Shown here one piece after another: positions 62,605-62,752 of a stretch of DNA of 64,000 nucleotides. The position numbers and the translations under genes were made by a program. Each line of letters begins with the position of its first letter. Position 1 is the stretch's first letter. Source of the DNA: Lysobacteraceae bacterium (lineage in GTDB: Bacteria > Pseudomonadota > Gammaproteobacteria > Xanthomonadales > Xanthomonadaceae); assembly GCA_023954075.1 (NCBI GenBank), contig JAMLIV010000003.1:106821-170820 (forward strand), in the 5' to 3' direction. Under the pieces are notes generated by a model. It did no database searches and was not told the DNA's origin. It was given only the letters and a program-made list of their open reading frames with translations.

Positions 62605-62752
62605 GCCAATTCTCCGCTAGAGTTGAGTGGCCGAGAGCATCGCGCCCGAGGCCCACGCTTATCGGTTCGAGAGAAGCCTCGATCAACTGTTCGGGCGCAG
62701 GGCGCGAGATCCGGCGTGCGGCCCCTGCTGAATTACGGTGGTGCTGACACCG
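62605..62752 (-). ncRNA. candidate bridge RNA in the IS110 leader
   Basis: The 148-bp leader upstream of the transposase is where IS110-group elements encode their bridge RNA. On the minus strand it reads: a stem CGCCCGA (62697-62691), ACAGTTG (62690-62684, same as the last seven bases of the element's right end), a hairpin TCGAG-GCTTCT-CTCGA (62682-62667), ACCGA (62666-62662, complementary to TCGGT at the left end) and the closing strand TCGGGCG (62649-62643). This is the layout of a donor-binding loop. A 5' hairpin CGGTG/CACCG is followed by TAATTCAG (62735-62728), identical to the attC target arm with its core. The target loop as a whole could not be resolved. Confidence 0.6.

Follow-up and report, generated by a model that had tools for sequence, protein, structure and literature searches.

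The bridge RNA of the IS110 group and the covariation of its guides with the target have already been published, as the accessible text of PMC11208160 sets out, and insertion into integron attC sites is described for the IS1111-type elements ISKpn4, ISPst6 and ISPa21 in the accessible parts of PMC11187229 and PMC11616780. The natural redirection of IS110/IS1111 elements is also on record, with ISXne4 and ISMch6 as examples in the accessible text of PMC11187229. RNA-guided targeting by IS110 elements and attC targeting by IS1111-type elements are thus both known. Here we describe an IS110-type element which occupies an attC, and whose leader carries guides that match it.

Extent and setting of the element

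The stretch of DNA analysed (the window, 64,000 nucleotides) contains an integron integrase gene followed by cassettes, and a 1.16-kb IS110-type element is found in the attC that precedes a small cassette gene (62841-63455). The features of the locus are as follows.

56401-57417, minus strand: integron integrase gene (TIGR02249, 470 bits, cut-off 265)
59614-59627, minus strand: exact target TAACGCCTGAATTA, unoccupied, in a further attC of the array
61620-61658, plus strand: interrupted attC, inner arms as far as the core, the far arm being replaced by a second IS
61659-62814, minus strand: IS110-type element, from ends conserved in relatives and a short subterminal inverted repeat
61681-62604, minus strand: gene for a 307-aa IS110 recombinase (NF033542 over the cut-off, PF01548, PF02371)
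62605-62814, minus strand: leader with the predicted bridge RNA (fold z -6.1; covarying structure, 45 sequences)
62815-62823, plus strand: interrupted attC, outer (GTTAG) arm and the other core copy

A preliminary description of this DNA had placed the left end of the element at 62752, giving a leader of 148 nt. Comparison of 20 leader-bearing loci, among 26 displayed from the 59 relative loci found, shows that conservation continues for about 60 nt past 62752, up to ...CAAC/TAACGC-CT-TATGTCTT. The real left end is therefore 62814, adjoined by the core at 62815-62816, and the leader is 210 nt long. Position 62752 was rejected as an element end; 62736-62752 is the inner hairpin of the target loop. 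With the left end at 62814, CCGATAACGC (62755-62764), previously read as the left target arm, becomes part of the RNA, where it includes the left target guide; the left target arm is in fact TAACGC at 62817-62822.

One copy of the CT core is present at each junction (61657-61658 and 62815-62816), the right end reading ...ACAGTTG-CT and the left end CT-TATGTCTT. The ends assigned at 61659 and 62814 are supported by the short subterminal inverted repeat, which is TCTT/AAGA, or TGTT/AACA in other relatives, with both sides changing together, and which is exact in 45 of 64 rows when counted as a 4-mer. The repeat spans only 4-6 bp (TGTCTT/AAGACA in the window copy), without a long repeat of 7-17 bp, as expected for the IS110 group (IS621-type), and the non-coding ends, 210 nt upstream of tnp against about 22 nt downstream, fit the same group. 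In one relative (L010, near 1901) the right end is duplicated in tandem (about 30 bp) ahead of the attC arm.

The nearest solved structure to the recombinase is that of IS621 (chain 8wt6_A, E 1.4e-27), to which 98 of 284 aligned residues are identical, about 35% over the aligned part. Residues D7, E51, D93, D96 and S228 align with five IS621 positions whose residue numbers we take to be those of the catalytic residues, and all five are kept. The combination found, a DEDD recombinase with a catalytic serine and IS110 domains, is that of the IS110 group (IS621-type). The features of the attC-targeting IS1111 group, a downstream non-coding region and a long subterminal inverted repeat, are absent from this element.

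A second element of the IS110 superfamily is also present, with one copy encoding 404 aa (58050-59587, minus strand; NF033542), a broken copy at about 60291-61617 and a remnant near 63514. It has a 12-bp subterminal inverted repeat (ATGGACTCCTCC/GGAGGAGTCCAT) and a downstream non-coding stretch, and its ends leave GGCTTGAA-TGAATTGTTAG, which is the other arm of attC. Judged by its ends and layout, it is IS1111-like. It is found on the far arm of the interrupted attC as well, so that both arms of one attC are occupied.

The predicted bridge RNA

The leader is predicted to fold into two loops carrying four guides, and its opposite strand is matched by an Rfam family.

62753-62760, minus strand: left target guide (LTG) TAACGCCT, identical to the left arm and core at 62815-62822; profile columns 74-79
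62736-62752, minus strand: inner hairpin of the target loop, CGGTG...CACCG
62728-62735, minus strand: right target guide (RTG) TAATTCAG, complementary to the core and right arm at 61651-61658; profile columns 97-102
62711-62777, minus strand: target-binding loop with its stem, 62763-62777 pairing with 62711-62724
62684-62690, minus strand: left donor guide (LDG) ACAGTTG, identical to the right end at 61659-61665
62658-62662, minus strand: right donor guide (RDG) ATAAG, complementary to the core and left end CTTAT, 62812-62816
62651-62696, minus strand: donor-binding loop, closed by GCCC (62693-62696) and GGGC (62651-62654)
62630-62791, plus strand: Rfam RF02234 sX15 match (120.4 bits, gathering score 55), on the strand opposite to the predicted bridge RNA

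The target loop holds TAACGCCT, a hairpin and then TAATTCAG, and the donor-binding loop holds ACAGTTG, a hairpin and then ATAAG. The arrangement found in the sequence is that of a bridge RNA, namely two internal loops with target guides followed by donor guides that match the target and the element ends. The RTG complements the core CT together with the right arm GAATTA, and LTG and RTG jointly specify TAACGC-CT-GAATTA, the attC flanking the window copy; both 8-letter matches are exact.

The preliminary description was correct in equating ACAGTTG with the right end of the element and in reporting an eight-base match to the attC arm including the core, which is the RTG; both guides recur in relatives. 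Because the motif ACAGTTGC was used to find right ends, the LDG identity counted in the donor-guide test is circular; the identity is also visible at right ends of relatives anchored by attC. The RDG had been assigned to ACCGA, which is not conserved: the four bases preceding the ATAAG position in 46 attC-guide rows are ACTG in 32, ACCG in 13 and ATCC in 1. The real left end, CTTAT, pairs instead with the ATAAG position, at 5/5 positions in 41 of 45 rows and at 4/5 in four. The 7-bp outer stem proposed between 62691-62697 and 62643-62649 is complementary on paper but unconserved, the conserved pairing being the GCCC/GGGC closure (97.2% of cells paired over 45 sequences). A match of CCGATAA to the other target arm had been suspected to be chance; the similarity is between the donor loop and the LTG, and probably is chance. 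The earlier anatomy was accordingly right for RTG and LDG but wrong for the left end, the LTG, the RDG and the outer stem.

Across 45 representatives, the 38 pairs of the structure are formed in 93.1% of cells, and 16 of them show two-sided changes. On each of five measures all 500 shuffles scored lower, and when the structure is slid along, 35-47% of cells pair. The target-loop stem is paired in 97.0% of cells, with two-sided changes in 9 of its 14 pairs, and RNAalifold finds this stem and the hairpin unaided. The predicted fold also pairs the 5' part of the RNA (CCAAUUCCCCUAG; 62796-62807) with 62605-62630 before the tnp start, a stretch holding GGAGA, a motif resembling a ribosome site; such pairing might couple folding of the RNA to translation.

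When 395 genomes of the window's family were searched with RF02234, matches were found in 88 and exceeded the cut-off in 70. At least 150 nt of downstream sequence, usable for a transposase check, was available for 111 of the 129 distinct rows described below, and an IS110 transposase lies downstream of the RNA in 100 of these (59 intact, 41 partial). The remaining 11 RNA copies (L105, L160, L161, L162, L164, L166, L181, L186, L188, L189 and L197) are without a detectable transposase downstream and are probably decayed or non-autonomous elements. The sX15 family would thus be the leader of an IS110-type element, an apparently new identification: no such link is made in the Rfam record line or among the literature matches listed, which lie largely outside subscription papers.

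Guides and insertion sites among relatives

A profile search over loci from the sX15-matching genomes and the earlier relatives gave 169 hits, 129 of them distinct by flank and guide. For the covariation test 155 left and 97 right rows of the 169 were used, which reduce to 23 and 15 distinct guides, and each guide was represented by its commonest flank; one left guide that is off by one base in the alignment (CTCCGC, 1/6) was kept in this test and omitted from the mismatch count given below. Guide and flank agreed at 104 of 138 positions on the left side, where permutation gave 56.4 on average (sd 6.5), and at 70 of 90 on the right side, where it gave 35.6 (sd 5.4); 0 of 20,000 permutations were as high on either side, in statistics where the guide types share ancestry and are therefore not fully independent. 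Covariation among relatives had been set beforehand as the test of the preliminary description, and it was found. Some left guides match at only 3/6 positions. When the windows were slid along the leader, the top ones were exactly the LTG and RTG columns (excess 2.16 and 2.45), and the next best reached 0.61 and, on another column, 0.70.

The guide classes, with flanks that follow them, are attC (TAACGC-CT-GAATTA), TCGGCT-CT-ACC, GTGGAT-CT-ACT, GAGC-CT-ACA and CAACCC-CT-CTCCCG. The TCGGCT and GTGGAT sites are, as judged by eye, the bases of palindromic repeats. Among related transposases the target class changes together with the LTG and RTG windows, and for the attC clade a C/T difference between RTGs is accompanied by G/A in the target (Fisher p 0.017, 27 sites, from a 2x2 table compiled by hand from the 28 attC-guide sites below with L017 omitted).

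There are 28 distinct attC-guide insertions with both flanks, and in 26 the attC arm directly follows the core, the exceptions being L007 and L017. A whole attC, with core arms RYYYAAC and GTTRRRY around inner inverted arms, is present at 19 of the 28; that of L015 was assigned by eye, the script having given none with its short left flank. Another relative, L185, has a wrong right end in the guide-class listing and is absent from the 28. One genome (G286) carries several copies at different attC (L068, L083, L087 and L090). Together with the covariation, these junctions bear out the earlier proposal that the leader RNA is programmed for attC.

Within the window, the 14-mer specified by the guides has one match at up to 2 mismatches (the unoccupied attC at 59614-59627), against 0.03 expected. 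The element's own genome has 13 sites within 2 mismatches, compared with 2 for a reversed-pattern control, and inspection by eye identifies 12 of the 13 as attC; unoccupied targets thus abound. As to the second IS, it is present in 8 of these 12 attC, while 3 are whole and 1 is truncated at the end of a contig.

A tree of 43 transposases places all 19 attC-guide rows in a single group (SH-aLRT 100), which also takes in two rows whose guide could not be read. The attC label requires 1 change among labelled rows, or 3 if the rows with unreadable guides are scored as non-attC; the tree has no fixed root, and so gives no direction for the target switch, and the long branch of L201 is flagged. No protein match was found in the plasmid collection at E 1e-60. 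A DNA pattern scan of the viral collection found one contig (L215, IMG/VR, 1101-1122, minus strand) with the attC-type left-end pattern.

Because the guides match the insertion site and differing guides go with differing sites, the RNA likely steers the element to attC. The two-loop layout, the exact guide-target matches, the intact catalytic set and the covariation of guides with flanks are observed. We consider it very probable that the leader is an IS110/IS621-type bridge RNA through which the recombinase is guided to a single position in attC and inserts the element there in a single orientation. The leader would be co-transcribed with the transposase, probably in a circular form whose ends are joined, and its sense strand would form a complex with the recombinase. 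The target loop, specifying TAACGC-CT-GAATTA, would then direct this complex to attC, where recombination would presumably proceed as in IS621.

Alternative explanations and known systems

In cassette recombination attC works in folded form. This, the mostly palindromic appearance of the target classes by eye and the strong folding of the leader on either strand could all be accommodated if the protein itself, or a folded DNA hairpin, found attC and the leader RNA merely regulated the transposase. The flanks are however tracked by two short leader windows and by no other comparably, the predicted loops sit where IS621 carries its guides, and related transposases change target class along with those windows, which makes recognition by protein or hairpin very unlikely. 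The position of the window copy, in a cassette array next to an integron integrase, could equally suggest that copies at attC are passengers of gene cassettes; yet 26 of 28 copies, whose cassette-side flanks vary, have their junction at the identical attC base, and relatives whose guides differ sit at non-attC sites. We regard passenger copies as extremely improbable.

A further possibility is that sX15, the antisense of the transposase strand, serves as the guide RNA. Rfam files sX15 on that strand with 120 bits, against only 26.7 bits for the model on the minus strand of the leader. Guides can pair with duplex DNA on either strand, so that target pairing does not distinguish the RNA strand, and nor does folding alone, since the minus strand folds 6.1 sd and the plus strand 5.6 sd below shuffles. 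Wobble in the stem pairs (233 G-U against 99 A-C cells) decides no strand, as five LDG-RDG columns account for about 140 of the G-U cells. The sense strand is favoured by guides that run LTG-RTG-LDG-RDG ahead of tnp and in its direction, as for IS621 in the accessible text of PMC11208160, and by the guide-target mismatches read on the transposase strand, of which 48 are of G-U type against 14 of A-C type, counts that are not independent. A further 58 mismatches are of neither type, so that guide-target pairing is imperfect in places. From these we infer a sense-strand RNA, and think it most improbable that sX15 is the guide strand; an antisense transcript restraining the bridge RNA is possible.

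With the leader read as a sense-strand bridge RNA, a broader picture can be proposed, which we hold with moderate confidence. The orphan sX15 of Xanthomonadaceae would correspond to the bridge RNA of a large lineage of IS110-type elements, its Rfam entry having the wrong strand or representing an antisense regulator of that RNA; one clade would have switched both target guides between palindromic genome repeats and attC; and two RNA-guided families with mirror-ordered guides would hit opposite arms of one attC, together locking cassettes. The IS110-type attC clade and an attC with a different IS type on each arm are apparently new, no attC-guided IS110-type element being reported among the literature matches listed, again largely outside subscription papers. 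An orphan Rfam family gains a candidate function, IS110-type elements join those that target attC and may freeze integron cassettes, and one bacterial family offers a naturally diversified series of bridge RNAs whose many guide-target pairs bear on guide evolution.

The element resembles the IS621/IS110 bridge RNA systems (PMC11208160, PMC11208158) in having a non-coding leader upstream, a target loop ahead of the donor loop, guides ordered LTG/RTG and LDG/RDG, a CT core, a short right end and a DEDD recombinase with serine. It differs in that its target is an integron attC where that of IS621 is REP, and in an RTG match of 8 nt including the core where the IS621 RTG is short. With the attC-targeting IS1111-type elements it shares the attC target and an RNA with two stretches matching the two target strands; in those elements, according to the accessible text of PMC11187229, the RNA lies downstream of tnp with reversed guide order, whereas here it lies upstream. 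RF02234 sX15 covers the same DNA stretch and the same stems, filed as an sRNA on the opposite strand. As in ISXne4 and ISMch6, again from the accessible text, related elements have changed guides at changed targets, but here the family comprises more than 20 guide types, with the target class changing between attC and other repeats.
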